Of a stretch of 29,331 nucleotides of DNA, positions 1,910 to 29,331 are shown one piece after another. The position numbers were made by a program, and so were the translations under genes. The notes under the pieces were generated by a model that did not search any database, was not told the DNA's origin, and worked only from the letters and a program-made list of their open reading frames with translations. This DNA is from a virus, in the IMG/VR virus record IMGVR_UViG_3300035180_003417, positions 1 to 29,331 of that record; one strand, 5' to 3'. Each line of letters starts with the position of its first letter. Position 1 is the first letter of the stretch.

Positions 1910-3895
1910 TTAGAAAATAAGTACGGTTTTTTTGTTTTCCTCTTCTGTTTTTATTTCAATTACAGGTTCTGCCTGAGTTGGGCCTAGCATGTCATACAAC
2001 TCAGAGAGTGAGATGATTTTTATTCCTTGTTTTCTTGCTTTTTCTAACTTGCCAGAAGTAGCTTTTGGATCCTTTGCGATTAACACTGTGGTGTCTTTTT
2101 TCACACCATCATGTATGATACCACCCTTAGCTTTTATCCGTTCCTCAGCGTCACTAGACCTAACCCCTGTGAATGCAAATGATTGACCAGACAATTCGCC
2201 GTCAATTGTGACTGCTTGTTTGAGAGTCACAATACCTTCTTGCAAGAGGTAATCAAGGAATTCAATGAATGATCTACGACCGCATAAAAATACCGCCGCA
2301 CTCTTATCACTATAACCTTCAACTGTTATGATTTGGCTTACTTCTGCAGTTCGCCAAGCATCACCTAACTTGTCAAGCAACATTTTAGCTTTGCGAGTGC
2401 CAAAACCACGGCCGAATTTAGGGTAAGAACCCATCAACGCCGCTAAATCACAATTTTGTAAGACTTTTTGCAGTGAAAAGTAGGTTTTTGAACCATTCTT
2501 GCCTAAGATTGCATTTAGCTGAGGTTCTGTCAGCTCTATGATGTCTAGCAGTTCAGTAAACCCTTCTTCGTACAGCCGCTGAAGAGATGCATCTTTCAGG
2601 TTGTCTATCTCTAGGCCAGCAAAAAAGTTTTTCAACCGTAAGATGTGAGCTCGTTCGGTTGTTTCAAGAGCAATTGCATCAACTCCAGTTTCATTCCAGT
2701 CCCAATCAACTGAAGGCATCATAGGTTCAGTGCCTTCAATCACTTCTAAGATGTCTGGGATAACATCGCCAGCGCGTTGAAATTTAACTTTAGCTCCAAT
2801 GCCAATCTTATTCTCGAAGATAAAGCTTGCGTTAAAGCCAGATAAACGAGAAATCGTGACGCCACCAACTTCAGTTGGTTTGATTAGGACAACTGGCTTC
2901 ATGTAGTCATAAGCCGTAATGTTCCATTCAACGCCGATAACCTCGCCAATAAAAATTTCATTGACTATTTTCCATTTGAAGGCATAGCCTGGATTTAAAT
3001 CATCGAGCGTTGGCATTAATTCAGCGCGAATGGAACCTTCGTAAAGTTCAATTACTATACCGTCGCATTCATATTCGCTTTTTTCTTTTATGTCAAAGAC
3101 AAGTGAATTGAAATGTTGATCGAGTGAAGTTTCAACCTTTGACAGTTCAATGATACTCCACCAGGGAACCTTAAAGCCCATTTCAGCAAGATAATGGAAT
3201 TGCTGTGATTTATCAAGATCACAGCCGGCAATATCATATGCAACAAAGTCTAGGTAAGGAAAAACCTCATCTGGTATCTCTTTTGCATTTATTAGCCCGG
3301 TGATTGTATTACGAGCATTCTTGTATTCACGACCTTTAACACGAAGTAATATATCTCGAACAATTGGAAAATTGCGTTTAGAGATAATCAATTCACCGCG
3401 AACGCTGAAGTCTTCTTGATCGAGCGCTAAAAAATGATTAAGCGAATGTGGTAGCGACGTAAATTTAAGCAAATGTCGCGTGATATCTTTACCTGTGACG
3501 CCATCACCACGCGTGGCTGCTAAAGTCAGCTGACCTTTGTTATACGTTACCGTTCCAGAGCCACCATCGAGTTTTTCCGATGCGATGAGAACTACTGGCT
3601 TTTTAGTCTGCATCCATATGTTAATGTCATTCAACGTATAGAGCTGTTTCAAACCGGCTACTGGCATGCTGTGTTGTAATTCAGCGCCGCGAACCTTTGC
3701 ACCAACCTTTCTAAAGAAATGATTATCTGGCCAAGTGTCTTGAGCTAGCTTGTAAAGCCTATCGAAATCTTCATCAGTAGCAAGTGGTTCACCTTCGTGA
3801 TATGCATCGGACAGACTTGTCAAAATTCCAATTGCTTCAGCTTCATTTAAAGTATTATTGTGGAAGCCTGACATTGCAAAGTCGATTGTTTTCAT
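1910..3895 (-). CDS. ligA: NAD-dependent DNA ligase, zinc finger lost
   Basis: This enzyme seals nicks in duplex DNA using NAD+. Visible domains are an N-terminal Ia segment (AYHEGEPLATDEDFDRLY near residues 31-48, the NMN-binding signature that separates it from ATP ligases) and the adenylation domain with nucleophile Lys108 in EKLDG. These are followed by an OB fold ending near FQRAGDVIPDI, a helix-hairpin-helix region around residues 460-560, and a C-terminal BRCT domain (FAFTGVRSSDAEERI onward). At 661 aa it is close to bacterial LigA length. The Cys4 zinc finger normally between OB and HhH is absent: that stretch contains no cysteine at all. Its need for NAD+ fits the NAD-salvage genes further along the window. 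Confidence 0.95.
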   Translation of the reverse strand: MKTIDFAMSGFHNNTLNEAEAIGILTSLSDAYHEGEPLATDEDFDRLYKLAQDTWPDNHFFRKVGAKVRGAELQHSMPVAGLKQLYTLNDINIWMQTKKPVVLIASEKLDGGSGTVTYNKGQLTLAATRGDGVTGKDITRHLLKFTSLPHSLNHFLALDQEDFSVRGELIISKRNFPIVRDILLRVKGREYKNARNTITGLINAKEIPDEVFPYLDFVAYDIAGCDLDKSQQFHYLAEMGFKVPWWSIIELSKVETSLDQHFNSLVFDIKEKSEYECDGIVIELYEGSIRAELMPTLDDLNPGYAFKWKIVNEIFIGEVIGVEWNITAYDYMKPVVLIKPTEVGGVTISRLSGFNASFIFENKIGIGAKVKFQRAGDVIPDILEVIEGTEPMMPSVDWDWNETGVDAIALETTERAHILRLKNFFAGLEIDNLKDASLQRLYEEGFTELLDIIELTEPQLNAILGKNGSKTYFSLQKVLQNCDLAALMGSYPKFGRGFGTRKAKMLLDKLGDAWRTAEVSQIITVEGYSDKSAAVFLCGRRSFIEFLDYLLQEGIVTLKQAVTIDGELSGQSFAFTGVRSSDAEERIKAKGGIIHDGVKKDTTVLIAKDPKATSGKLEKARKQGIKIISLSELYDMLGPTQAEPVIEIKTEEENKKTVLIF

Positions 3896-4605: not shown

Positions 4606-5034
4606 GTGAAGAAAAAAATTCCACCACTTATAATTGATAACATTGAAGAAGCAAAAAATCTACATTTACTTTCACTAGTTGAATATCGTCGAGTTGAATA
4701 TACCTGCATAATCGATAATATAACTCCAACTGAGTTAAAAGTATATGCGATTGATAAGGCACACCCTGAGGCAATTTTACCAAAGCAGCTCGTTTCAGAA
4801 GCAATTTACTGGTATTATAATTGTTCTGACAAATATCAATTCAGTGTCTATCTAGCATCTAAAGATTTAGCACAACATGCAACTCCATTTTATCATTCAT
4901 TTGACATTAATGGAGTTTCGCGTGTTGTGGGGCGTGCTTTTCACTTTCCTGATTTATCAAAAGCAAAAATAAAGCGACGCCGAATTATCCCAATTCAAGA
5001 AGGAATTCCAGTCGTGTTTAAAAAAAGTTCTTAA
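4606..5034 (+). CDS. Hypothetical phage protein (142 aa), lone plus-strand gene
   Basis: I do not recognise this protein. It is soluble and mixed alpha/beta. Its distinctive segments are SEAIYWYYNCSDKYQFSVYL and FDINGVSRVVGRAFHFP, and the C-terminus is strongly basic (KAKIKRRRIIP). It starts with GTG, supported by a GGAG Shine-Dalgarno about 10 nt upstream. It diverges from the ARD-like gene, and its stop codon overlaps the stop of the AGT-like gene on the opposite strand by 4 nt (convergent). A single gene against the strand of all its neighbours is often a late insertion or an independently timed gene. Codon use looks like that of its surroundings. Confidence 0.75.
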   Translation: MKKKIPPLIIDNIEEAKNLHLLSLVEYRRVEYTCIIDNITPTELKVYAIDKAHPEAILPKQLVSEAIYWYYNCSDKYQFSVYLASKDLAQHATPFYHSFDINGVSRVVGRAFHFPDLSKAKIKRRRIIPIQEGIPVVFKKSS

Positions 5035-6443
5035 AATTCTAAAATTGATTTTTTAGCTGCTGAAGTTTGAACCAAGTTTTGGGGCAGCTTAAACTTTGCT
5101 GCCTCGACTCGTTTTTTACCATCGAATACCGCAATAATACCTTTTTTTGGTTCTTCTAATCCTAATGCAACGAGCTGTCCTTTATAATTCAGTTCCAAAT
5201 ACTTTTCAACATAGTCTTCACTTCTTGTAATGTTAAGCAACATTTCTTCGATTGATTTAAATTTGTTGCGATCTTTACCAATTGCTAAAACTTCTTCAAA
5301 CATTTTCGGCAAGATTATTTCAGCGTCATACTCAGCTCGAATAATATCATATGATGTATTTCTAATCAACTTTTGCAGCGAAGGTGTTTTTGAAACTTCA
5401 ACAAGCTTTTCAACTGTTTCAGCTAAATTAGCTTTGTCAGAATAGATGCCAGAATGCTCAATCTCACTGAATGGGGTACCATCACTTATGCCATTATGTT
5501 GAGCCCAATGCAAATCAAAAACTGGTAAAGAGCCGACCGCGATCATTTCAATCTGCGCATATTCCATTCTCCAACCATAACCATTTGGGTCTTTTGGCAT
5601 TCGATAAAAAGAACAGTTAAACAATGAGTTTGCCATTTGTTCTAAACCATACTGCCTCATGTACGGTCCTTCAACTGGAGTGCCTGCTAGATTACCAAGT
5701 TGCTTGCCCTTTATTGATAAATCTAAACAATATGGATGGTCAAAAATATCACCTTTTGCTCCAATAGACCGTTCAATGCCTATCAATCGAGTATCAATTT
5801 CGTGCTCTCTAAGTAATGGTCCAAGGTCCAACACGCGCCTTGGGTCTTTCATTGAGGTCCAACGGCTTGCGTAAAGTAACTCTTTTTTCTTGGCTGAAAG
5901 TGGAATGGAGTCACGCAGTTTTTCAGTTGTGACAGTAAAATTTTGCCACATTGTAAAGCGTTTGATACGTTCGCCAAGCTTTTTAGAAGGTAGCAGCGTA
6001 CTCACGTTAGTTGAAAAATATGTCTTTTCACTAAAATTGAAGATAACATCACACGCATTTAAAATTCCAAGCAGATGTGGAATCTTATTGATGTTCATGG
6101 TGGTTAGTTCATGCATAAAACCCATGATAACTGGCTTTTCAAGCTTTAACACCAGCTCATAAAAAAATCCATCGATTGCTTCCTTTGAATTTGTAGCAGC
6201 TGGGTAAGAATTCAAGTAAACAATATCGACTTGTTCAAGCTGAGCTCGTAAGCTTGGAATGTCGGCTACGGTAAAGAAGTTATTGTCAATTCCATGTCCA
6301 TCGCCACGAGCGAATTTACGTTCAGCTAAAGAATAAACCTTAGCGATATGCCCGGTTTTTTCAGCCCATATTTGAACTTCGTGTGCGCCACGCGTAACAC
6401 CACAACCGTCAAGTCCTTTTCCATTTATTATTGCTATTTCCAT
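5031..6443 (-). CDS. agt: T4 AGT-like DNA glycosyltransferase
   Basis: This GT-B-fold glycosyltransferase closely parallels T4 alpha-glucosyltransferase, which puts glucose on 5-hydroxymethylcytosine in phage DNA. Collinear matches recalled from the T4 protein include the N-terminal GKGLDGCGVTRG (T4: GLEGCGVTK), RWTSMKDP (T4: RTTTWKG) and TRLIGIERS (T4: TVMEGLERS). Further matches are MEYAQIEMIAVGSLPVF (T4: LEYTHLELGACGTIPVF) and HSGIYSDKANLAETVEKL. At 470 aa it is about 70 aa longer than T4 AGT, with an extra C-terminal region of unknown role. It lies first in a run of sugar- and nucleotide-related genes, 2 nt from the FkbM gene. The sugar transferred could differ from glucose, and the acceptor base cannot be proved from this window because no hydroxymethylase is present. 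Confidence 0.85.
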   Translation of the reverse strand: MEIAIINGKGLDGCGVTRGAHEVQIWAEKTGHIAKVYSLAERKFARGDGHGIDNNFFTVADIPSLRAQLEQVDIVYLNSYPAATNSKEAIDGFFYELVLKLEKPVIMGFMHELTTMNINKIPHLLGILNACDVIFNFSEKTYFSTNVSTLLPSKKLGERIKRFTMWQNFTVTTEKLRDSIPLSAKKKELLYASRWTSMKDPRRVLDLGPLLREHEIDTRLIGIERSIGAKGDIFDHPYCLDLSIKGKQLGNLAGTPVEGPYMRQYGLEQMANSLFNCSFYRMPKDPNGYGWRMEYAQIEMIAVGSLPVFDLHWAQHNGISDGTPFSEIEHSGIYSDKANLAETVEKLVEVSKTPSLQKLIRNTSYDIIRAEYDAEIILPKMFEEVLAIGKDRNKFKSIEEMLLNITRSEDYVEKYLELNYKGQLVALGLEEPKKGIIAVFDGKKRVEAAKFKLPQNLVQTSAAKKSILEF

Positions 6444-11909: not shown

Positions 11910-12899
11910 TCAATTATAGAAATTGAAGATTAACCAATTCGACAACCACTTTTCAAATCGCTTTTTCAGCTCTTCAGTTCTTGGCTGTAGAGTAGTTGTT
12001 TTGATTAGCTCTTCTAGTTCTGTATTTAGCTGGGTGAAAATTGCAATAGCGTCATCAAATGGAATTTTTTCTTGCTTGATGTCCAATAGTAACTGTTTGT
12101 TTGCCAGCGGGAATTTAAGCTCATGGGTTTTGAGTAAATCTACCGCTTGTGAAACAACTCGAACGGCATGTGAAAGTGCTTTCCAGTCAATCTCAGAGCT
12201 CTGAGCTTTCTTGACACGTTCACCGTATCTTTCTCTAACTTTGTTCAGTTCAATTAGCAGATATTGAACTGAAGATGTTAGTGGATATTCATTGTTGTTT
12301 ACCTTTAGGGCTGGCTGATTTGCATGTGCCGGGTTAGTTCCCTTAATGATAGTAAACGTAATTTCATCACTTAACAGTGTATTCAATGCGTTTTTAATAT
12401 CAGCCAATCGAACAACAGTCGGATTCTCGATAGTCTGTAAAAACCCAATTAGGCGCTCTAATGCATTCAATCGTTCAGCCTTAATGCCATACAATTGAGA
12501 TTGTTTAATCGCGTAACTAACCATTGCGTTAAGTTCTTTTGTCAAAAATCTTTGCACAAGTTCTCTAGCAAATAGAGACATTTGTTGTTGTCTGTCTTCA
12601 AAAAATTCAACATTGTTCGTGATTGGGTCTAACATCGCAAAGGTGCATTCGATTGCCCATGATTGCCCAGAGAAAAAGTCATATGCTAAGCGATGAATTG
12701 GAACAAATTCAGTTTCAGTTTCACCAGCTGACATACATTCATTTTCTTTAACGGGTCTATCTTTATAGATTTCGGCCTTTTTTCCAAGAACCATATCAGA
12801 AAGCTCTGGAAGATAAATGACTTTTAAGTCAATATCCGATTGTAGTGTTGAGGTGCCATAGAGATGACTACCAAATGGAATTTTTACTATCTTTCGCAT
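11910..12899 (-). CDS. Predicted nucleotidyltransferase (COG3541-like)
   Basis: The N-terminus carries the polymerase-beta-superfamily nucleotidyltransferase motif GSHLYGTSTLQSDIDLK: a helix-turn GS, then the D-x-D metal pair. The rest (to residue about 329) is helical, as in the COG3541 group found in large phages. Such proteins add nucleotides to an RNA, a protein or a small-molecule acceptor, but the substrate of this branch is not established to my knowledge. A GTG at 12908 would add three residues. I prefer the ATG at 12899, because an AGG site lies 8 nt before it. Confidence 0.75.
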   Translation of the reverse strand: MRKIVKIPFGSHLYGTSTLQSDIDLKVIYLPELSDMVLGKKAEIYKDRPVKENECMSAGETETEFVPIHRLAYDFFSGQSWAIECTFAMLDPITNNVEFFEDRQQQMSLFARELVQRFLTKELNAMVSYAIKQSQLYGIKAERLNALERLIGFLQTIENPTVVRLADIKNALNTLLSDEITFTIIKGTNPAHANQPALKVNNNEYPLTSSVQYLLIELNKVRERYGERVKKAQSSEIDWKALSHAVRVVSQAVDLLKTHELKFPLANKQLLLDIKQEKIPFDDAIAIFTQLNTELEELIKTTTLQPRTEELKKRFEKWLSNWLIFNFYN

Positions 12900-12927
12900 T
12901 GATTGCACCTGTTAGATTTATAATAGA

Positions 12928-13854: not shown

Positions 13855-14433
13855 CTATAACACTTCTATACCAATTAAGTGCAGTTGAAGCACTATAATG
13901 TGAGCATACGCTATCGCATGAGATTTTTTAAATGAAAAACCATTAGTGTCCTTTAAATATAAAATGCCTCTACAAACATCACGGTTAGATAGGTAAAGTG
14001 GTAAAAGCTCTTGCTTACCTGGTCTAATTAGAGCTAGTGCATCAGCAAGTTCTTCAATTGATGTTGGCTGTAGTTGTTTTAACAGCTTTGCGTGTCTGCT
14101 AAGTTGAAATAACTTTTCAACTTCTGCCTCATTTAATAATATGCTCCAATCTGGTTCAAGGTCAAGTAACTGCAACATTTCAGTTCTTTCGGTGAAATGT
14201 TGATATATTGTTAAATGTAGAAAATCGAGCTTAAAATAACCGAGTTCTTCAGCTTGGTCATATGGAATTGCCGCAAGCTTAGTTATTGGGTCAACTGCAA
14301 TATCTTGTGGATAGATGCCACACGGATGCGGCCCAAGTACTTCATTTTTTACAACACTTGCTCTAACCCAGTTAGGAAAAAGAACTAGTGGATCAAATGA
14401 AGGGTCTAAGTCAATATCAATATCAAAGCTCAT
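13855..14433 (-). CDS. Catalytic half of split DNA polymerase III alpha-like protein
   Basis: Short collinear segments match the palm and thumb of DnaE. FDIDIDLD (residues 3-10) corresponds to PDFDVDF with the first two catalytic aspartates. GYFKLDFLHL holds Asp70, matching Asp555 of the E. coli enzyme. LADALALIRPGK matches the IALVALFRPGP region, and GFSFKKSHAIAYAH matches the YGFNKSHSAAYA motif. DnaE needs about 380 residues between the first and last of these motifs; here it is about 165, so much of the thumb and fingers is missing. The protein starts exactly where the GRGS-containing protein at 25812-26342 stops. It is coupled (ATGA) to the zinc-finger gene and downstream of the clamp loader. 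Polymerase activity is not assured. Confidence 0.75.
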   Translation of the reverse strand: MSFDIDIDLDPSFDPLVLFPNWVRASVVKNEVLGPHPCGIYPQDIAVDPITKLAAIPYDQAEELGYFKLDFLHLTIYQHFTERTEMLQLLDLEPDWSILLNEAEVEKLFQLSRHAKLLKQLQPTSIEELADALALIRPGKQELLPLYLSNRDVCRGILYLKDTNGFSFKKSHAIAYAHIIVLQLHLIGIEVL

Positions 14434-18213: not shown

Positions 18214-18594
18214 TTATTCGATGAACTGTAACTCAGGATACAAACTCCTAATGGTAAAGAAGTCAATGTAGTCAGATGACAAGTGGGCATCATGAACTGC
18301 GATTTGACAAATGATTTTATCGATGATTTCTTGGTGAGTATATTCACCATTCAACAAATCGAATGAACCGGTCAAGTGTGGCAAACCGGTAGCAACATTT
18401 TTGTCGACTGCATCACGAGCGGCCGCTTTGGAAAATTGATCGCTAGGAGCTTTGTATGCAACGCCCCAGACACAACGTGAAAACTTTTCATCTACATTCG
18501 TTACCGACGTTGAAATGGTAACGCACAGTTTATGAAGTTTTGGAAATAATGCAATCTGACCCAGCCGCAAATAACGATTTTTTTTTACAGACAT
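18214..18594 (-). CDS. Hypothetical phage protein (126 aa)
   Basis: I do not recognise the family. It is a soluble protein with a basic N-terminus (SVKKNRYLRLGQIALFPKLH). The middle reads FSRCVWGVAYKAP and LPHLTGSFDLLNGEYTHQEI, and the C-terminus is acidic. An AGAGGA Shine-Dalgarno precedes the ATG. It lies 24 nt after nadV on the same strand and is likely co-transcribed with it. Confidence 0.7.
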   Translation of the reverse strand: MSVKKNRYLRLGQIALFPKLHKLCVTISTSVTNVDEKFSRCVWGVAYKAPSDQFSKAAARDAVDKNVATGLPHLTGSFDLLNGEYTHQEIIDKIICQIAVHDAHLSSDYIDFFTIRSLYPELQFIE

Positions 18595-18618: not shown

Positions 18619-20100
18619 TTAAATTTGAATTGTTCCAGCTCTTGCCCTTGCTTGAACATCGTCAAATGACTGACGATATTCACGAAACCCAGTATCAAAG
18701 TAAGACCGCCAACCAGGTTGATCGACCCACATTGTCATTTCACCACTGAACTCTTTAAGGTTGTCAATTACCTCCAGCTCACCAGTTTGATTTTCTCTGC
18801 AACGAGCTAAACCAGTTAATGATTTTTTACCACTGTCAGTTTTTGGGTCTTTTAACAGGCTTTGCCAATGTCCATTTGACAACTTATTCGCTATTGCTTT
18901 AACCGAGAAGCTGAAGTCATCACGTCTACCATCATGGGTAACGCCAGAGCCCATGCCCATGCAGAAGTTGTCTAAGCTAAAGCCACCATTAAATACCCAG
19001 CCTTTGATGATTGCCTCATGGGTTTGAACCACAACACCATCGCCTTGGATAACACCGATTGCTGGGTGTAAAACGTCGAAGCCAGCAGCATTTGTAGTTG
19101 CGCCAAAACGGTTTCTGAAGATTGTTCCAATTTCAGCAGGTTTTGTTGTTGCATCGCCGCTGTCAGGGCGACCAATCAATCGACCACCAGAATTAATGAT
19201 ACGATCTTTTAACAACTGACCGAGATATTCATCAGCAAAGCGAATATCATCAAACGTATCGATAACTACGGATACAAATGGAATGCCAATACCAGTTTCA
19301 TTTACGCGTCTAACAGCAGCTTCAAGCTGTTCAACCATCATTACCGCCGCACCATAATCGTCTTTTTTTGCGCAATTTGAATTACTGGTCATAGTGTAAT
19401 GCTCTGAAGCATCGATTGATGATGTGTAATTCTTTTGTGTACGATACAACTTTTTGATATAGCGATTAGCTTGTAGGCAATCGCTGCCATTAAACAACAT
19501 AGCGTGAGCCATTGCAGCAAGAACAGCGGCTTCAGGAGCATCAGCACCACGATCGCCAAAGTTGTGCAGCATGTAACTGATATCATCTTTAGTGTCCGTC
19601 ATTTCTGCATAGTGATACAGAGTTTTTCTAATAGCTCGGCAGATTGAAGCCACAGTGGTCATTTTCCAGCCGATACATTGGATGATAGTTTCAACATCGC
19701 CAACAAGCCAAGCAAAACCTGGTTTGCTGTTAATCCAACCCATCATCGGAGTTTGTGGCTTGATGATACGGCCTTCTTCAACACCAAAAATTTTTAATGG
19801 CAACTTGCCGTCAAATTCACGAACAATTCGCATCCAGCCTTCACGGTAGAATTCATAGCCTTGAGCTTCAATTTCAAGTTGAGCTTCGTCAACCATGTCT
19901 TCGGTAATACGAACAGAAGCAAGATATGAGGCAATCATGTGTTGACCGGCTGAAACAATTTCGTCAGCATAATCAGCGTATTGCCGTGGAACCATGACCG
20001 TGTAGGTATAATCAACATCAGTTGGTATTTGTTTCCAGTGACAAGCTTTATATCCATCGCAAGTTAAAATAAAATTGGATGATGCTAAATGCTCTATCAT
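18619..20100 (-). CDS. nadV: Nicotinamide phosphoribosyltransferase
   Basis: This enzyme makes nicotinamide mononucleotide from nicotinamide and PRPP. NAMPT motifs are clear: CDGYKACHWKQIP near residue 14 (family D-S/G-Y-K-x-x-H-x-x-Q), LHNFGDRGADAPEAA near 178, DASEHYTM with His234 equivalent to the phosphorylated catalytic His247 of human NAMPT, and GRPDSGD near 310. The length (493 aa) is normal. An AAAGGAG Shine-Dalgarno precedes the ATG. With the NMN adenylyltransferase/Nudix protein at 22903-23952 it forms a two-step route from nicotinamide to NAD+. This is the arrangement first noted in phage KVP40 and later described as a phage NAD+ reconstitution pathway. Confidence 0.95.
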   Translation of the reverse strand: MIEHLASSNFILTCDGYKACHWKQIPTDVDYTYTVMVPRQYADYADEIVSAGQHMIASYLASVRITEDMVDEAQLEIEAQGYEFYREGWMRIVREFDGKLPLKIFGVEEGRIIKPQTPMMGWINSKPGFAWLVGDVETIIQCIGWKMTTVASICRAIRKTLYHYAEMTDTKDDISYMLHNFGDRGADAPEAAVLAAMAHAMLFNGSDCLQANRYIKKLYRTQKNYTSSIDASEHYTMTSNSNCAKKDDYGAAVMMVEQLEAAVRRVNETGIGIPFVSVVIDTFDDIRFADEYLGQLLKDRIINSGGRLIGRPDSGDATTKPAEIGTIFRNRFGATTNAAGFDVLHPAIGVIQGDGVVVQTHEAIIKGWVFNGGFSLDNFCMGMGSGVTHDGRRDDFSFSVKAIANKLSNGHWQSLLKDPKTDSGKKSLTGLARCRENQTGELEVIDNLKEFSGEMTMWVDQPGWRSYFDTGFREYRQSFDDVQARARAGTIQI

Positions 20101-20156
20101 AGTAAATCTCCTTTACTTTAAATTAAAAGATCCAGGTCTATCCCAAATCTTACTAT

Positions 20157-20181
20157 ATTATACTACATTTTTAAGATTATA
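20157..20181 (-). promoter_or_regulatory. Tandem -10 boxes upstream of nadV
   Basis: Two perfect TATAAT hexamers on the minus strand (20157-20162 and 20176-20181) lie in the 87-nt gap between nadV and the NADAR gene. No convincing -35 element was found at the right spacing for either. In AT-rich sequence such boxes are common, so this is only a candidate promoter for nadV. Confidence 0.35.
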
Positions 20182-20187
20182 CACTTT

Positions 20188-20724
20188 TTATTCGTATGGA
20201 TTTGCGTCGTCAAAAAGGCGAACATAATTCTTTATCTCGGTAATTAATTCTCCGAGCCAGTTTCTACCTCGCCATTGTTCTTCTGGCGTTATTAGCGCGG
20301 TAGCTTCATCCAAACCAATACCCCAAATCGTATCATACGGTGAAGCTTTAACCAAAATCTTATCACCAGTATCCAAAAGCTGTTTTAAGAGCTTTGGGTC
20401 CTGGTTAAACTTTTCATAAAGCCCTGGGTAGATCAAACGTTTTGCATTTGCTTCCCAAACTCCTACATCAAAGTTTTTAACTAAGCGACCAAAGTCTTTG
20501 ATTTCTTTTGGATCACTAGATTGCATGATCTTATCAGCAATCTCAACATCCTCAAATAAACCAGCTTTCTTGAACACCATGTACTGCTCGCCACAGTTAA
20601 ACATCAATGGGCCATAATCTTTGTCGGCTATCACATTGTCATGCATCTTGAAATAGCTTGGATACCAGTTAGAAAAAGGTCCAGACCAAAAGAAATAAAA
20701 TTTTCCGTTATGTATGTCAGTCAT
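20188..20724 (-). CDS. NADAR (YbiA-like) family protein
   Basis: Matches the NADAR/YbiA fold throughout: FFWSGPFSNWYPSYF at the N-terminus, CGEQYMVFKKAGLF (Glu46 in the family's catalytic region), FGRLVKNF, and LYEKFNQDPKLLKQLLDTGD. The closing motifs ASPYDTIWGIGL and RGRNWLGEL are also present. Family members are N-glycosidases acting on riboflavin intermediates, and some have been reported to remove ADP-ribose from guanine bases. The length (178 aa) is normal. It sits between nadV and a deoxyribosyltransferase-like gene with short spacings, and a GGAG Shine-Dalgarno precedes the start. A role in reversing ADP-ribosylation of phage DNA is plausible from this context but not proven. Confidence 0.88.
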   Translation of the reverse strand: MTDIHNGKFYFFWSGPFSNWYPSYFKMHDNVIADKDYGPLMFNCGEQYMVFKKAGLFEDVEIADKIMQSSDPKEIKDFGRLVKNFDVGVWEANAKRLIYPGLYEKFNQDPKLLKQLLDTGDKILVKASPYDTIWGIGLDEATALITPEEQWRGRNWLGELITEIKNYVRLFDDANPYE

Positions 20725-20727
20725 GAA

Positions 20728-21213
20728 TTATTCTCCGTGATTTTCATATTGATTAATTGTGTTGTCAATAAATGCGATTAAGCGTGCTAAGCTATTAAGT
20801 TGTGGGATAGCAAATCTATCACAAATGATTTCAACATTGCCTTTCCGATAAAAGCCATCAGGGCAACAAACAACTGCTGGTTTTTTCAAACCGACAACAA
20901 GACCAAGTTCAGCCAATGTGATTGGGGATTTAGTTGCTGGATCAATGTAGAATACGACTAAATCACTGCCCATAATGCCATTCAATTCCCAATTCACTTG
21001 CTCTCTGAACACTGGATCTTCGACCGATTGAACAACCGCATTATTCCAATCGTCTCGACGAGGATTAAAGAATGAAACATTTTTCGACTTAAAGCTTTGA
21101 ACAATCTTTTCTTGCCAGCGTTCAGCAGCATTCATCTCTATTGAGCCAGCTAAAAAGATTGTTGGACCAAGCTTTTCGAATTTTTGAAATAGGGGTGGTT
21201 GTAGTTCAATCAT
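20728..21213 (-). CDS. Nucleoside 2-deoxyribosyltransferase-like protein
   Basis: TIFLAGSIEMNAAERWQEKI near the N-terminus, FNPRRDDWN, and WELNGIMGSDLVVFYIDP are typical of the nucleoside 2-deoxyribosyltransferase-like family. ITLAELGLVV follows, with the catalytic-type Glu. These proteins hydrolyse or exchange N-glycosidic bonds of nucleosides or related compounds. At 161 aa it is a single-domain protein. It is coupled by 4 nt to the PurA fragment upstream and followed closely by the NADAR gene. The fold and the company suggest base, ribose or ADP-ribose chemistry, but the substrate is unknown. Confidence 0.82.
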   Translation of the reverse strand: MIELQPPLFQKFEKLGPTIFLAGSIEMNAAERWQEKIVQSFKSKNVSFFNPRRDDWNNAVVQSVEDPVFREQVNWELNGIMGSDLVVFYIDPATKSPITLAELGLVVGLKKPAVVCCPDGFYRKGNVEIICDRFAIPQLNSLARLIAFIDNTINQYENHGE

Positions 21214-21704
21214 TTTTTAAACCGCACGTCGTTTCTAGTTGGACAAAAGCTGAGATAATTTGCTTGTTGAGATAAGTAACTGTGTTGCAGCTTATCAGCC
21301 CACGTTACAGCAAGTGAAACCTTTTTATGTTTTGCTTGAATATGCTGGCTATCATGCAAAATTCTAAAAGCGAGATCATTTATATCATTTTGTTTTATCG
21401 GAGCAAACCTGAGGTGTTGCTGGTAATCGTTGAAGATGTTTGTCTTATCTTCAAATTCTTCTGGCCAACGTATCTCATTTTCAAGTGGGCCAGCACCATG
21501 TCGAGTAAGATAGCCACGAGTAACGTAAATTAATTCGACGTAAAGATCATCATGACCTTTAATGCACTTTGCAATATTTTCAGCACCACATGCCGATGGA
21601 GTACAGTATGGCATTGTTCCATACTGTTCATCAAGTAATAGCCCTTGAGCGCCTTCGAAGATGACTGTATCATGTGTTCGCATCACAAGGTCCATTGTAT
21701 TCAT
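21210..21704 (-). pseudogene. Adenylosuccinate synthetase-like fragment (C-terminal half)
   Basis: The fragment begins just before a PurA motif: VIFEGAQGLLLDEQYGTMPY, followed by the family's VTRGYLTRHGAGPLENEI and a C-terminal segment ending SFCPTRNDVR. The N-terminal half, which holds the P-loop (G-D-E-G-K-G-K) and most of the IMP/GTP site, is missing, so it cannot be an active synthetase alone. The frame extends to TTG at 21707. The best start is the ATG at 21704, which overlaps the stop of the truncated kinase (TGATG) with no Shine-Dalgarno. It could be a remnant of a phage purA/purZ-type gene after a deletion joined it to the neighbouring gene. Confidence 0.72.
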
Positions 21705-22402
21705 CAATAGATACAGGTCGAATGGTACTGTGGGCTAACAAAAACATTAGTTGTTGTTAAACCATTGTGATTTAAATTAATGTAATTCAAAAAACAGTTC
21801 GTATTCAATAACGAACTGACAATCCAAGCCACATGTTTAGGAGGTATTTTACCACCCAAGTGATCGATTAAATCTTGTAACAATACGACATCTTCAGTCT
21901 TTTTCATCACAAAGACGTGGCCAATCGAGCAGTCAACTCCACTGAAAATGATGTCCGGCATATAACGCGTAAACTCGTCTTTGAATTTGTCAAGAGGATA
22001 GTGAATTGCGCCAATCTGTTTTTGAGCGTTTTCAAATAATGGTTTAAAATTTTGATCGATAACATACATCAAAAATTTGCGCCCGATGTAAAGCTTACCA
22101 ACTTCAATTTCATGGAAACGACGATATTTAAAAACCATCTTTTTCTTGTCATTTGTATAGAACAAGATTTCATTTGGGCCATTCCAAGTACCCATTCCAA
22201 GCTGCTCTAAAGCAGTTTCTTTCAGCTCATTTAAGTGCTGAAAAACCTTGGTGGCATCCGGCGATTTGTTTCGGTCTGGGTGCCATTTAGACTTTATCTT
22301 CCGATGCTGAATGATGATGTCAACCGGATTAAACAGTTTGTCAGGGCGATTCTTTGGAATTGCTAAGATGTCAGACGCTGATAATGAATCCAAGTCAATC
22401 AT
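21704..22402 (-). pseudogene. J-domain protein kinase, C-terminally truncated
   Basis: Residues about 28-65 form a J domain with the HPD motif (KSKWHPDRN, residues 38-45). The rest resembles the N-lobe and catalytic loop of a small phage J-domain kinase. The last recognisable segment is NHNGLTTTNVFVSPQYHS, equivalent to an H-x-D-x-x-x-x-N catalytic loop with the Asp changed. The expected activation region and C-lobe are missing, and the frame ends shortly after at 21704. The PurA-like fragment starts at the same point, so a deletion probably fused the two genes. The N-terminal J domain may still be made: an AGGAG Shine-Dalgarno precedes the ATG. Confidence 0.72.
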
Positions 22403-22403
22403 A

Positions 22404-22490
22404 TTAAGCTCCTAATGGACTTCCGCGTTTATAGCTTTCTTCCATAGCCCAAGTGATAATGTCCAAGTGATCTCTCATATGAATAATCAT
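22404..22490 (-). CDS. Very short ORF or gene tail (28 aa)
   Basis: A short frame (MRDHLDIITWAMEESYKRG and a few more residues) ends by overlapping the start region of the J-domain kinase, and its last codons contain that gene's Shine-Dalgarno. The composition looks coding, but there is no Shine-Dalgarno of its own. The homing-endonuclease remnant begins 11 nt upstream on the other strand. It may be the surviving 3' end of a gene cut by that insertion, or a tiny intact gene. Confidence 0.4.
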   Translation of the reverse strand: MIIHMRDHLDIITWAMEESYKRGSPLGA

Positions 22491-22500
22491 TTATTATTTT

Positions 22501-22859
22501 GGAATTAAAATAAAAGTATTTGGATTCATCTATCTTACTACAAATTTGGTCAATAATAAAAAATATCTAGGATCTGGAAAGTTTTTATTAAAATCTATTA
22601 AAAAATATGGCATTGAGAATTTCGCCAGAGGGTTTACTGGGGGAAAACACTCTAATGAATTTAAACTTAAACAAGCAGAGCATTGCAAAAAAGACCAATC
22701 ACGGAAAATATGCGAAATGCATTTCGCATAAATGGAACGAAAACTGGTGGTTTTTATCATACAGAAAGTCATAAAAAAGCAATAATAAATTGTGGTAAAA
22801 TGAATAGAGGTAAAAATGGTATAACAATGGAATACGAAATTTTTACTTTTTCCAACTAA
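22501..22859 (+). pseudogene. Remnant of a GIY-YIG homing endonuclease
   Basis: In one plus-strand frame (from 22501) the sequence reads VFGFIYLTTNLVNNKKYLG, then SGKFLLKSIKKYGIENF. This is the classic start of Seg-type GIY-YIG homing endonucleases (GFIY with KYLG). It is followed by GFTGGKHSNEFKLKQ, a NUMOD-like DNA-binding motif. That frame stops at 22731. A second frame (22710-22859) continues with FYHTESHKKA and CGKMNRGKNG, another NUMOD-like repeat. The catalytic Glu region between the two parts is deleted, and no start codon or Shine-Dalgarno remains, so it is a dead gene. It lies on the strand opposite the NAD genes. Confidence 0.75.
22709..22730. repeat. 22-bp perfect palindrome
   Basis: A perfect inverted repeat of 22 bases around the centre AATGCATT, with outer arms TATGCG/CGCATA, lies in the homing-endonuclease remnant, where the two coding frames meet. 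It could be a protein-binding site, a hairpin left by a repair or deletion event, or a chance feature of the coding sequence. Confidence 0.6.
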
Positions 22860-22902
22860 TTTAAAAATAAATGAACAACAATTAACACTCGGGTTTAAAT
22901 CA

Positions 22903-23952
22903 TTACATTGAATCACATGCATTTTTTGCAAATCGAATTATATCAATATGATCTTCAAATAAAAACTCTTCCATCTCCAAAGCATCATCTAAAGGAAACC
23001 ACTTTGCTTTCGTGGCATCGTCGCCACCTTTCACCTTAGACAGCTCACCATTTGGTAAGACAAATGCGAAAGCGTGGGTAATTGTGCGGCCGCGTAATGA
23101 TCGACCTGGGTGGTCAAATACATGTCGAGCTACCATTGAACCTGCCAAAACCGCGGTAGGTACCTTCAATTTTGTTTCTTCACGAAGCTCCCGCAAAACA
23201 CCAACCGTGACAGTTTCATCTTGATTGAGGAATCCGCCAGGAAGAGCCCAAAGACCTTTGCCAGGAGCTGCTTTTCGTTGAACCAGCAAGATGTGACCAG
23301 ACTGAATAATCGCCGCATCCGTTGTCACAAAGATTGGTGGATATGGTGCTTTTTCCCAAGCCGATTTATACTTTTTAACAAACTCAAATTCAGTCACAAG
23401 GTCAGAATATTGTTCGGCCTTTGACCATTGGCGCAAGAAATCTTGAAGCGGTTTAGAGATGAAGTCTTTATCATGCCATTGAAATAACCTACCAGTAAAA
23501 TATTCTTCGCGTATGGCCGTGGCGTTGACGTCTTCGATTTGTTCCATCTCAATAAATTTCCATTGAGGGAACATATCGAGGTAGTAGCTAGATGAATCTT
23601 TTTTGCAGCCGATGATACCAATTTTTGGCTTATCAATTCCGATGATTTCTTGTTTGACTAAGCGTTGAACTTGTTGTGCCCACTCTTGGTCATTATATCG
23701 GTAATCATGGATGCCGCGGCAGCTAACACTTGGAGTATCAGCTGGCTCTAATTGATTAATGAGCATGGTAGCTCGTTCATGCCAACTCCAAGGATTTTTA
23801 ATTGTGCGTGGTTGAAAACTTGAACCAAAAAGAACTAAGACTTTTTTAGAAAGTTCAATAGCGGTTTTAACATTGGCAATGTGCGCCAAGGTTGGTGGTT
23901 GCATACGACCAATATAGATTACTAAATCGTACGGTTTTGAGATTTTTTGCAT
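22903..23952 (-). CDS. natV: Bifunctional NMN adenylyltransferase/Nudix hydrolase
   Basis: Residues about 8-155 form an archaeal-type NMN adenylyltransferase: YIGRMQPPTLAHIANVK near 13-29 (nucleotidyltransferase loop), and DVNATAIREEYF near 141-152 (S/N-x-T-x-x-R motif). Residues about 205-345 form a Nudix domain with an intact box from GGFLNQDET to RELREETKL (240-262). The first domain makes NAD+ from NMN and ATP. The Nudix half probably hydrolyses ADP-ribose or related compounds. The length (349 aa) equals known bifunctional proteins, and an AGGAG Shine-Dalgarno precedes the ATG. It completes the nicotinamide-to-NAD+ route with NadV, from which it is separated by several genes and a decayed insertion. 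Confidence 0.93.
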   Translation of the reverse strand: MQKISKPYDLVIYIGRMQPPTLAHIANVKTAIELSKKVLVLFGSSFQPRTIKNPWSWHERATMLINQLEPADTPSVSCRGIHDYRYNDQEWAQQVQRLVKQEIIGIDKPKIGIIGCKKDSSSYYLDMFPQWKFIEMEQIEDVNATAIREEYFTGRLFQWHDKDFISKPLQDFLRQWSKAEQYSDLVTEFEFVKKYKSAWEKAPYPPIFVTTDAAIIQSGHILLVQRKAAPGKGLWALPGGFLNQDETVTVGVLRELREETKLKVPTAVLAGSMVARHVFDHPGRSLRGRTITHAFAFVLPNGELSKVKGGDDATKAKWFPLDDALEMEEFLFEDHIDIIRFAKNACDSM

Positions 23953-25811: not shown

Positions 25812-26342
25812 TTAGTCATGAAAGAATTCACTCCAATGAATGTTGTATTGTAATGGGTTTACTTGATGTAAGCCAATTAAGTATAGTAGATAACTTGCGC
25901 AACTACTCCCACGACCAATTCCCCAAAGTTGATTATTCTTCTTGAATGTTTCAACAACATAGATGATTGTGCGTAGCCCATTTTCAAAATTGAACTTATG
26001 AACTTGATGTAGTTCTTCACAAACACGTTCAATTTGTTGTTCATTTAATTTTTTTTGAACTATTTCATTTGCAAAATAATCTTGAAGGTCTAAATTAAGA
26101 TATCGTTCTGGTATTAGCCATTTTGGAGAAAAAGAAAGCTCTTGGTCAACTGAGAATTCTAGCAACTGAACTTCAGAGCGTTCATTGAATTTGATGGTAT
26201 CTAAAGAATGTTCAGTAAGTTTGATTTTTGATGGTGGAACCTGGCGCAGCAAAAGTTCATAAACTGATTCGGGTTCAACAACTGAAGTTCCATCTCCAAG
26301 AAGAAGTCGTTCTTTTAATACTGTTATGGCAGCTGGATGCAT
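25812..26342 (-). CDS. GRGS half of split DNA polymerase III alpha-like protein
   Basis: The C-terminal 40 residues are a clear match to the DnaE palm entry. QLWGIGRGSSCASYLLYLIG (139-158), followed by HQVNPLQYNIHWSEFF, equals the bacterial V-G-P-G-R-G-S, S-L-V-A-Y, then D-P-L, F-E-R-F series that binds the incoming nucleotide. The residues before this fit the preceding helical linker of DnaE. The PHP domain is absent. The protein stops directly after the FERF equivalent, exactly where the other half (13855-14433) begins with the catalytic aspartate motif. At 176 aa it would need that partner to form a palm. It overlaps the dCMP deaminase gene by 19 nt, so both are co-transcribed. Confidence 0.78.
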   Translation of the reverse strand: MHPAAITVLKERLLLGDGTSVVEPESVYELLLRQVPPSKIKLTEHSLDTIKFNERSEVQLLEFSVDQELSFSPKWLIPERYLNLDLQDYFANEIVQKKLNEQQIERVCEELHQVHKFNFENGLRTIIYVVETFKKNNQLWGIGRGSSCASYLLYLIGLHQVNPLQYNIHWSEFFHD

Positions 26343-27895: not shown

Positions 27896-28324
27896 ATGAA
27901 ACAATTTTTAGTACTACTGCTGTGTTTAGCGATTGATATGCGGGCAGTTTTTGCTACTGAACCACAAGTGCTAGCTGAAAAAAATATCGCTGACAAACAG
28001 TTATCAAAATACGACCTTATTAACATTTTTACTAGAAAAAAACAATTCTGGTCAGATGGGCATAAGATTAAAGTTTTCACAAAGCCGACTGATTCGCTTG
28101 AACATCGAATGTTCACGATTAGCGTTCTAAATATTACCCCATATAAGTATCGTACACTATTAGATAGTGTAATCTATAGTGGTGCAAACAATTCAGTTAA
28201 TGAGATTAGTTCAGATGCTGAAATGTTGACAAAGCTAGCTGCAACCCCATATTCAATTGGATATGTCAATTATACAATAATAGTAAATTCAAATTCGCAA
28301 TTAATAGAGATAAAATATGACTAA
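27896..28324 (+). CDS. Periplasmic PstS-like (PBP-like) protein
   Basis: An N-terminal signal peptide (hydrophobic LVLLLCLAI, cleavage likely after VFA at residue 20) exports it. The mature part follows the pattern of short phosphate-binding-protein-like domains. The LSKYDLINIFTRKKQFWSDG segment is followed by KIKVFTKPTD, and the ending is EMLTKLAATPYSIGYV. Proteins of this type bind oxyanions or partner with outer-membrane proteins in bacteria. It is about half the size of full-length PstS. It overlaps the beta-barrel gene by 8 nt, so the two are coupled. Transfer from a host genome is an inference. Confidence 0.75.
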   Translation: MKQFLVLLLCLAIDMRAVFATEPQVLAEKNIADKQLSKYDLINIFTRKKQFWSDGHKIKVFTKPTDSLEHRMFTISVLNITPYKYRTLLDSVIYSGANNSVNEISSDAEMLTKLAATPYSIGYVNYTIIVNSNSQLIEIKYD

Positions 28325-29331
28325 GCTATATGCCTGTGCACTAGGTTTAGCCCTTGTTAGTTTAACAGCTCAAGCGGAACGTTTTAGTTTACCGGGCGAT
28401 ATGAAATTAGATGTTAATGGCTACATTGGTTATAAGTACATAAGTTCTTCAGTGAAAAATTCAGCAATTAAGTCAAGCCCTGAACTTGGCTTATTACTTT
28501 CACTGCAAGCAACTGAAAATCTTTCATTTTATACTCAATTAGCTTACGATCAACGCATGGATACATCGTTAGTTTATAGCTTTGCTGCTTTTGATTGGCA
28601 ATTTGAGAATGGTTTAAGAACAAGTATAAAAGCTGGTAAATTACGTCAGAATTATGCGCTTTATAATACAACGAGGATTAACCCGAGAACTCGACAAGGA
28701 GTAATTCCGCCACAAGCCATTTATTGGGATTCTCTTTCAACGCTTTTAACATCAGGTATTGGCGTTAGTGGACAGGTAGATTATTCAAATTTTGAAGTTG
28801 GGTTTACTGTAGATAAACCAATCTCAATCGATCCAAAACAAGAAGCTGATACTTGGACAACTGGGTTAGTTGATAAAGTGCAAGTTGGTTTTGGTTCTAG
28901 AAAATCAGCATACCTTCAATATTCAAATGATGAAGTTCCAATTAAGGCAAAGTTGTCGTGGTTTCAATTAAACCTTGGCAATAATTATACCTTGCCAATG
29001 AAATATCTTTTTCCAGAATATTTGAATAAAGACCAGATTGTAAACATTTATTTAGCCGGTATTGAGTATTCGCCGACCGATAAATTAACATTTATTGGTG
29101 AAACTCTTTTTATTAAAGCCTTTTTTAACACATTTTCGCATGTTGAAAAATGGAGTAATGGTTATTCTTTTACCGCAAAATATGATTTAACTGAGTATAC
29201 CACACCTTACATAAATTATAATTATTATCATTCTCAGCATGTCGATAGAACTCCACCAATTCCATGGCAGTATGAACATACCTCAGACATAAATGCTGGC
29301 ATAAATTATCACCACGACAATTGGCAGGTCG
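28317..29331 (+). CDS. Outer-membrane beta-barrel (porin-like) protein, partial
   Basis: The gene runs off the right edge: 338 codons are visible and no stop is reached. A signal peptide (ACALGLALVSLTAQA, cleavage after residue 20) is followed by alternating hydrophobic-polar strands rich in Tyr, Phe and Gly, such as GDMKLDVNGYIGYKYISS and WQFENGLRTSIKAGKLR. This is the pattern of a transmembrane beta-barrel. The RQNYALYNTTRINPRTRQG segment recalls a loop seen in trimeric porin-like proteins. No known porin was matched with confidence. It is translated with the PstS-like gene (8-nt overlap). It could act as an outer-membrane channel, a receptor mask or an exclusion protein. Confidence 0.75.
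   Translation, partial: MTKLYACALGLALVSLTAQAERFSLPGDMKLDVNGYIGYKYISSSVKNSAIKSSPELGLLLSLQATENLSFYTQLAYDQRMDTSLVYSFAAFDWQFENGLRTSIKAGKLRQNYALYNTTRINPRTRQGVIPPQAIYWDSLSTLLTSGIGVSGQVDYSNFEVGFTVDKPISIDPKQEADTWTTGLVDKVQVGFGSRKSAYLQYSNDEVPIKAKLSWFQLNLGNNYTLPMKYLFPEYLNKDQIVNIYLAGIEYSPTDKLTFIGETLFIKAFFNTFSHVEKWSNGYSFTAKYDLTEYTTPYINYNYYHSQHVDRTPPIPWQYEHTSDINAGINYHHDNWQV

Follow-up and report, generated by a model that had tools for sequence, protein, structure and literature searches.

The window analysed here is the whole 29,331-base IMG/VR virus record IMGVR_UViG_3300035180_003417. Its minus strand carries the four genes with which we are concerned: NadV, a nicotinamide phosphoribosyltransferase of the NAMPT type; a protein that joins a nicotinamide mononucleotide (NMN) adenylyltransferase domain (NMNAT) to a Nudix domain; and, between these two core enzymes, a NADAR-domain protein and a nucleoside deoxyribosyltransferase-like protein of the family PF15891, for which the label NDT2 is used below (Table 1). 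All four lie where an earlier reading, made from the letters alone (hereafter the sequence-only reading), had placed them, and their family scores are far beyond chance. As a list of what stands between the core enzymes that reading was right about NADAR and NDT2 but incomplete, since it overlooked a PurA-like stub, a DnaJ-domain open reading frame (ORF), and a relic of a GIY-YIG endonuclease.

Table 1. Features of the NAD+ cassette and related genes in the window (aa, amino acids).
Feature	Length	Position	Strand	Matches and remarks
NadV, NAMPT-type nicotinamide phosphoribosyltransferase	493 aa	18619..20100	-	PF04095 7e-19, PF18127 1e-15; phrog_448 3e-110
Bifunctional NMN adenylyltransferase / Nudix (ADP-ribose pyrophosphatase-type) protein	349 aa	22903..23952	-	PF00293 8e-20, PF01467 5e-6
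NADAR-domain protein (YbiA-like)	178 aa	20188..20724	-	PF08719 6.4e-45; PDB 8bau match
NDT2, PF15891 nucleoside-deoxyribosyltransferase-like protein	161 aa	20728..21213	-	PF15891 1.3e-32
Adenylosuccinate-synthetase (PurA/PurZ)-like C-terminal stub	165 aa	21210..21707	-	PF00709 positions 202-277 of 416
DnaJ-domain protein, possibly truncated	232 aa	21704..22402	-	PF00226 2e-5, under curated cut-off
GIY-YIG (homing-type) endonuclease relic, frame broken		~22530..22800	+	VNNKKYLGSGKFLLKSIKKYGIENF motif, stops in all frames; phrog_314 0.0018 (weak)
Small protein, no family assigned		18214..18594	-	next gene downstream of NadV
NAD-dependent ligase		1910-3895		PF01653 4e-25

Over its whole length NadV can be aligned with NAMPT structures (6tac E 1.4e-50). 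The human NAMPT positions D16/Y18, R196, D219, H247, D279, R311/D313, and R392 are kept in this alignment, and the conserved residues cover the nicotinamide, phosphoribosyl pyrophosphate (PRPP), and histidine roles. The Namat enzyme of phage SPbetaL1, which uses ADP-ribose pyrophosphate (ADPR-PP), relies on F392 and Y396 as an aromatic selectivity clamp (PMC12774641). The PDB chain 9w5x is evidently this Namat, since by count its residues 392 and 396 are F and Y. At the corresponding clamp-helix positions, within GMGSGVTHDGRRD, the window NadV has G and D, and its bit scores are about 175 against NAMPTs versus about 140 against 9w5x; hence it is of the NAMPT type. A Namat, i.e., NARP1, identity was ruled out because both clamp-helix aromatics are absent, and phmmer found no PRPS-like (Adps) ORF in the window, which is a fragment.

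A NAMPT-type NadV requires an NMN adenylyltransferase, and one is encoded 2.8 kb away. The protein matches 2qjo, a bifunctional enzyme (1.5e-95), and 2qjt (1.4e-73), and retains intact nucleotidyltransferase motifs (GRMQPPTLAH and NATAIR) and a Nudix box (GFLNQDETVTVGVLRELREE). With catalytic residues retained in both core proteins, the complete nicotinamide-to-NAD+ route proposed by the sequence-only reading is borne out. As predicted from these motifs, it is a route of a known kind, the NAMPT plus NMNAT pathway that we take to be NARP2, a name used in PMC12300627.

The compared loci bear L-numbers and include IMG/VR contigs (L006, L007, L009, L084–L086), phage isolates, and bacterial chromosomes. 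Among named phages, the best matches to the window NadV are in the large phages XaC1, Vibrio phage 2.275.O, RaK2, CBB, and GAP32, at 39–45% identity; in all four of these that were examined (XaC1, 2.275.O, RaK2, CBB) an NMNAT/Nudix gene is close to NadV. The NARP2, or NadV–NadM, pair of RaK2, CBB, and XaC1 resembles the window in that a NAMPT-type NadV and an NMNAT/Nudix gene lie a few genes apart on the same strand, whereas the extra genes linked to it in RaK2 and CBB are Sir2 and Nudix instead of NADAR and NDT2 between the core enzymes. Several IMG/VR contigs are nearer to the window NadV: L006 (72%), L007 (69%), and L084–L086 with L009 (about 55%).

In the window NADAR, the putative catalytic residues are E46, K53, and D131, the Asp being that of the WGIG strand; this mapping is indirect, through 8bau and residue spacing (PMC11543638), with no direct alignment to the E. 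coli C7 NADAR. In the NADAR tree the window protein groups with those of L009 and L084 (support 99/96), and the Bacteroidota NADARs form one separate group (98/93); thus, it was not simply copied from the bacterial clusters described below. Every NADAR tested in vitro, that of T4 included, reverses guanosine-ADP-ribose on DNA or RNA (PMC11125620; PMC11833690), and the catalytic residues are kept here. The protein could therefore strip guanine ADP-ribose marks that a DarT1-like toxin puts on phage DNA or RNA, NDT2 being unrelated. We consider this highly improbable for three reasons. Firstly, the T4 enzyme, although active on guanosine-ADP-ribose in vitro, gave cells no protection against DarT1 (PMC11125620), so that removal of DarT1 marks is not the obvious role here. 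Secondly, the window gene stands beside genes of NAD+ enzymes and not beside DarT: its neighbors are NDT2 and NadV, and no DarT gene is adjacent, on which ground a role as DarT1 antitoxin was ruled out. Thirdly, NDT2 would be left unexplained.

In NDT2, E102 falls where N-deoxyribosyltransferases have their catalytic Glu, and it is invariant in 22 aligned homologs, as is the W/NPR/WE/RxGN set. The AlphaFold2 model (predicted local distance difference test, pLDDT, 87.6) has its best Foldseek match in 4mcj (6.5e-12), with weaker matches to YtoQ, MilB, and DNPH1. The predicted fold and the invariant E102 fit N-ribosyl hydrolases or transferases. Of the proteins sharing the fold, 4MCJ (BDI_0649 of Parabacteroides distasonis) is a putative deoxyribosyltransferase by its entry title only, while MilB and DNPH1 are distant (14–17% identity) and act on CMP-type and deoxynucleotide substrates. 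The NDT2 tree, built on few columns, is poorly resolved, and its deep branches were not used.

Both helper genes recur beside NadV. Within 6 kb of NadV in 65 viral clusters, an NMNAT/Nudix gene is found in 61, NADAR in 7, and NDT2 in 4. Counted from the other side, 13 independent viral clusters from IMG/VR contain NDT2, and in 8 of them NadV is at most 6 kb away (P = 1.6e-7 at a 6% chance each, shared ancestry uncorrected). The 6% errs on the high side for 12 kb out of a 200-kb genome, and this background was calculated and is not an empirical control. The position of NDT2 relative to the core varies: before, after, or between. In the isolates CcrColossus, Marchewka, and Tunturi_5, NadV is 7–10 kb from NDT2; in X1, Slicko01, and Lak-A1 it was not seen in the stretches examined around NDT2, and hence the link is frequent rather than universal.

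The association extends to both types of core. A NAMPT-type NadV neighbors NDT2 in the window, L006, and L029, all three with non-aromatic residues at the clamp positions, and in L111 and L148, which are accompanied by an NMNAT/Nudix gene. NDT2 also adjoins Namat-type NadVs, with F/Y at the positions of 9w5x 392/396, in L031, L034, L042, and L044, and in L032, L041, and L046 NadV has the Namat aromatic at the first position only. PRPS-like and Macro genes are present at several of the loci with Namat-type aromatics.

About 28 of 80 bacterial NDT2 loci, in Bacteroidota, form clusters with NrtR and PRPS-like genes, and 19 have NadV. Their further partners, in variable sets and order, are NADAR, Macro, KptA, an ADP-ribosylglycohydrolase, a phosphoesterase, and a Namat-type NadV, and the cluster NadVs have F/Y at clamp positions 392/396. 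As many of these loci come from one genus, Aquimarina, they represent few independent events. NARP1 (Adps plus Namat), including these clusters, thus shares with the window an NAD+-rebuilding core and the accessories NDT2 and NADAR; the window differs in having NAMPT and NMNAT as its core and neither the Namat clamp aromatics nor a PRPS-like gene. Two Flavobacterium loci add PurA-like and VWA-like genes, a pair that also occurs by NADAR in the phages L009, L121, and phiKT1024.

A further tie of NDT2 to ADP-ribose chemistry, separate from the gene neighborhoods and read from predicted domains, is found in gp225 of Tunturi_5 (L077 11953-15741), located just before the portal gene: this 1262-aa protein is a fusion of NDT2 with a pair of ADP-ribosyltransferase domains of the ART-PolyVal kind. 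The association with Macro, KptA, and glycohydrolase genes in bacteria likewise suggests recycling of ADP-ribose.

Recurrence of the helpers in unrelated phages and in Bacteroidota suggests that the two proteins may return ADP-ribose products to NAD+ during host defence. The sequence-only reading had made NADAR and NDT2 part of the NAD+ module, which this recurrence supports; its suggestion that they might remove decoy signalling molecules found no support. We place somewhat better than even confidence in the following reading: the cassette is a NARP2-type system of NAD+ reconstitution in which NADAR and NDT2 cut N-glycosidic derivatives of ADP-ribose and so feed the rebuilding of NAD+. Judging by sequence, NadV would convert nicotinamide and PRPP to NMN, and the NMNAT domain would convert NMN to NAD+. 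The Nudix domain, by the class of its homologs, would split ADP-ribose into AMP and ribose 5-phosphate, from which a host PRPP synthetase could make PRPP for NadV. NADAR and NDT2, by their context, would hydrolyse N-linked derivatives of ADP-ribose generated by host TIR, Sir2, or ADP-ribosyltransferase (ART) effectors. Candidate substrates are base-linked ADP-ribose and possibly cyclic or amino-acid-linked ADP-ribose signals, and the linear ADP-ribose set free would re-enter NAD+ synthesis; in NARP1 loci the two enzymes would supply Adps and Namat directly.

The precedent for the proposed feeding step is RyDEP, described in 2026, a glycosidase encoded within a NARP1 operon that converts 2'/3' cyclic ADP-ribose (2'/3'cADPR), a Thoeris signal, to ADP-ribose (ADPR) and thence to NAD+ (PMC13232231). 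RyDEP is a model of how the window helpers may work, turning an ADPR signal into linear ADPR for NAD+ synthesis, but the enzymes themselves differ. RyDEP has a RyR-domain fold and cuts ribose–ribose O-glycosidic bonds, whereas NDT2 and NADAR have other folds and belong to N-glycosidase families, whose genes are repeatedly found next to NAD+-rebuilding genes of both types. In some TIR-derived signals the ADP-ribose is bound through an N-glycosidic link, and within the literature, looked at narrowly, we know of no enzyme that degrades them.

Several observations weigh against this reading of the helpers. The substrates assigned here to NDT2 and to the window NADAR are candidates, and in the NADAR tree the window protein has a long branch (0.9 changes per column), which may point to a changed or relaxed function. 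Five of the 13 viral NDT2 clusters have no NadV within 6 kb, and bacterial NDT2 genes outside Bacteroidota are not near NadV in the loci examined. Neither helper is essential, given that L006 lacks NADAR and L007 and L084 lack NDT2. The window is probably a fragment of a large phage genome, the rest of which is outside view. Finally, many broken genes and homing endonucleases crowd the interval from NMNAT to NadV, so that NADAR and NDT2 may be passengers, a point considered below.

A rather unlikely alternative is plain metabolic supply, in which NadV and NMNAT/Nudix raise NAD+ to serve NAD-using enzymes of the phage itself, while NADAR and NDT2 do general clean-up of nucleotides or riboflavin intermediates and have no role in defence. 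An NAD-dependent ligase is encoded in the same fragment, clamp-loader genes adjoin the cassette, and a dCMP deaminase gene is close by. Further, the fold relatives of PF15891 include the nucleotide N-glycosidases MilB and DNPH1, and YbiA acts on riboflavin intermediates (PMC11543638). Such a role is harder to reconcile with the co-occurrence of NDT2 and NADAR with Macro, KptA, ADP-ribosylglycohydrolase, and NrtR in Bacteroidota, or with the fusion of NDT2 to ADP-ribosyltransferase domains in Tunturi_5. The ligase had also been put forward in the sequence-only reading as the reason to protect NAD+. The gene is indeed present, but it fails as a general explanation of the cassette, since the related jumbo phage CBB, which has the same NMNAT–NadV pair, is annotated with a ligase of the other type (DNA_ligase_A_M).

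The passenger hypothesis arises from the remaining elements of the interval. The PurA-like stub spans positions 214-376 of 380 in a purpose-built profile and has no N-terminal half; the P-loop GDEGKG and the catalytic Asp are missing. In L009, the PurA-like gene is complete (383 aa, GDEGKG included) and stands immediately before NADAR and NadV, and the window copy therefore appears to have lost its N-terminal half, either by natural deletion or, as may also be, at an assembly join. A scan with the full PurA-like protein returned its own locus only. A functional PurZ, or 2-aminoadenine, pathway was ruled out, the gene being a stub. The DnaJ ORF matches phrog_3043 ("kinase", 376 positions) at the N-terminus of that profile only; its assignment as a protein kinase was ruled out because the DnaJ portion alone matches anything, and searches for its relatives gave nothing beyond generic DnaJ proteins. 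At the site corresponding to the window GIY-YIG relic, L006 has an intact GIY-YIG ORF, and it also carries a truncated RlmN-like gene. The most likely origin of the stub, the DnaJ ORF, and the relic is insertion and deletion in this interval, of which they would be the remains.

If the interval is an insertion hotspot, NADAR and NDT2 could be passengers with no functional link to NAD+. In addition to the PurA-like stub, the DnaJ ORF, and the GIY-YIG relic of the window, the truncated RlmN-like gene and GIY-YIG ORF of L006 and a GIY-YIG segment that replaces the start of NadV in L007 would fit this explanation. We nevertheless hold it to be very unlikely: the genes for NADAR and NDT2 are themselves undamaged and keep the catalytic residues, and each is found repeatedly near NadV, in phages of differing gene order as well as in bacterial chromosomes.

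Three observations were made on neighboring genes of related loci. In L007 (7797-9260), the in-frame GIY-YIG segment takes the place of residues 1–66 of NadV, so that the conserved DxYK motif is lost, and a broken gene, a fusion, or an intron are all candidate readings of this ORF. In 6 of the 65 viral NadV clusters an RlmN-like radical SAM gene lies within 6 kb, in most cases with NMNAT/Nudix on one side and NadV on the other; such loci include L007, L103, L110, L125, and L132. Genes for VWA-like, PurA-like, and NADAR proteins adjoin at L009, L121, L026, L225, and L236, i.e., in three phages and two Flavobacterium chromosomes.

The window is itself a variant of a known route. Phage NAD+ synthesis and the placement of NADAR beside NadM/NadV have both been described (PMC9503650; PMC7824862), the latter by Iyer et al. 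(2022; PMC9503650). Xanthomonas phage XacN1 has the order NMNAT – NADAR – NadV and thus, as in the window, a NADAR within the NAD+ salvage neighborhood. For the neighborhoods of Iyer et al., the text names no deoxyribosyltransferase-like component, and it is NDT2 that the window adds. In the open-licence literature, no paper was found that ties PF15891 (Nuc_deoxyri_tr2) to NAD+ rebuilding, and nothing on a nucleoside 2-deoxyribosyltransferase with NadV, or on adenylosuccinate synthetase with NADAR, in phage. What is new is that NDT2 repeatedly accompanies NAD+ reconstitution of both NARP types. A wider proposal is distinctly unlikely: that PF15891 proteins of this clade, acting as N-glycosidases, break down immune signals in which ADP-ribose is linked to a base or an amino acid and send the ADP-ribose back to NAD+ synthesis, as a so far unrecognised component shared by NARP1 and NARP2 in phages and by a Bacteroidota NAD+/ADP-ribose recycling operon. 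If true, a function could be gained for a family whose nearest solved relative (4MCJ) is putative by name.

Among other features of the window, the small protein gene downstream of NadV has homologs immediately after NadV in L006, L007, L009, and L084 and no match in Pfam or PHROGs. A scan for promoters and terminators yielded no excess over shuffled sequence (19 vs 18.6 and 4 vs 4.2, respectively). Two short ORFs 11 kb apart, at 25812-26342 and 13855-14433, each match a separate part of the alpha subunit of a C-family DNA polymerase III (PF07733 and PF17657; phrog_11127 and phrog_11778). The same split occurs in L006 and, by eye, in L084, and the polymerase gene seems to be divided into pieces. 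A weak match to the T4-type DNA alpha-glucosyltransferase (PF11440, 3e-7) at 5031-6443 means that the phage DNA may be glucosylated, and the ORF at 11910-12908 encodes a nucleotidyltransferase near the RlaP RNA-repair family (PF10127, 1e-4, slightly below cut-off). Two plus-strand ORFs at 27896-29330, with no Pfam match, appear by eye to be a phosphate-binding protein fragment and an outer-membrane porin, i.e., host-like genes close to the contig end.

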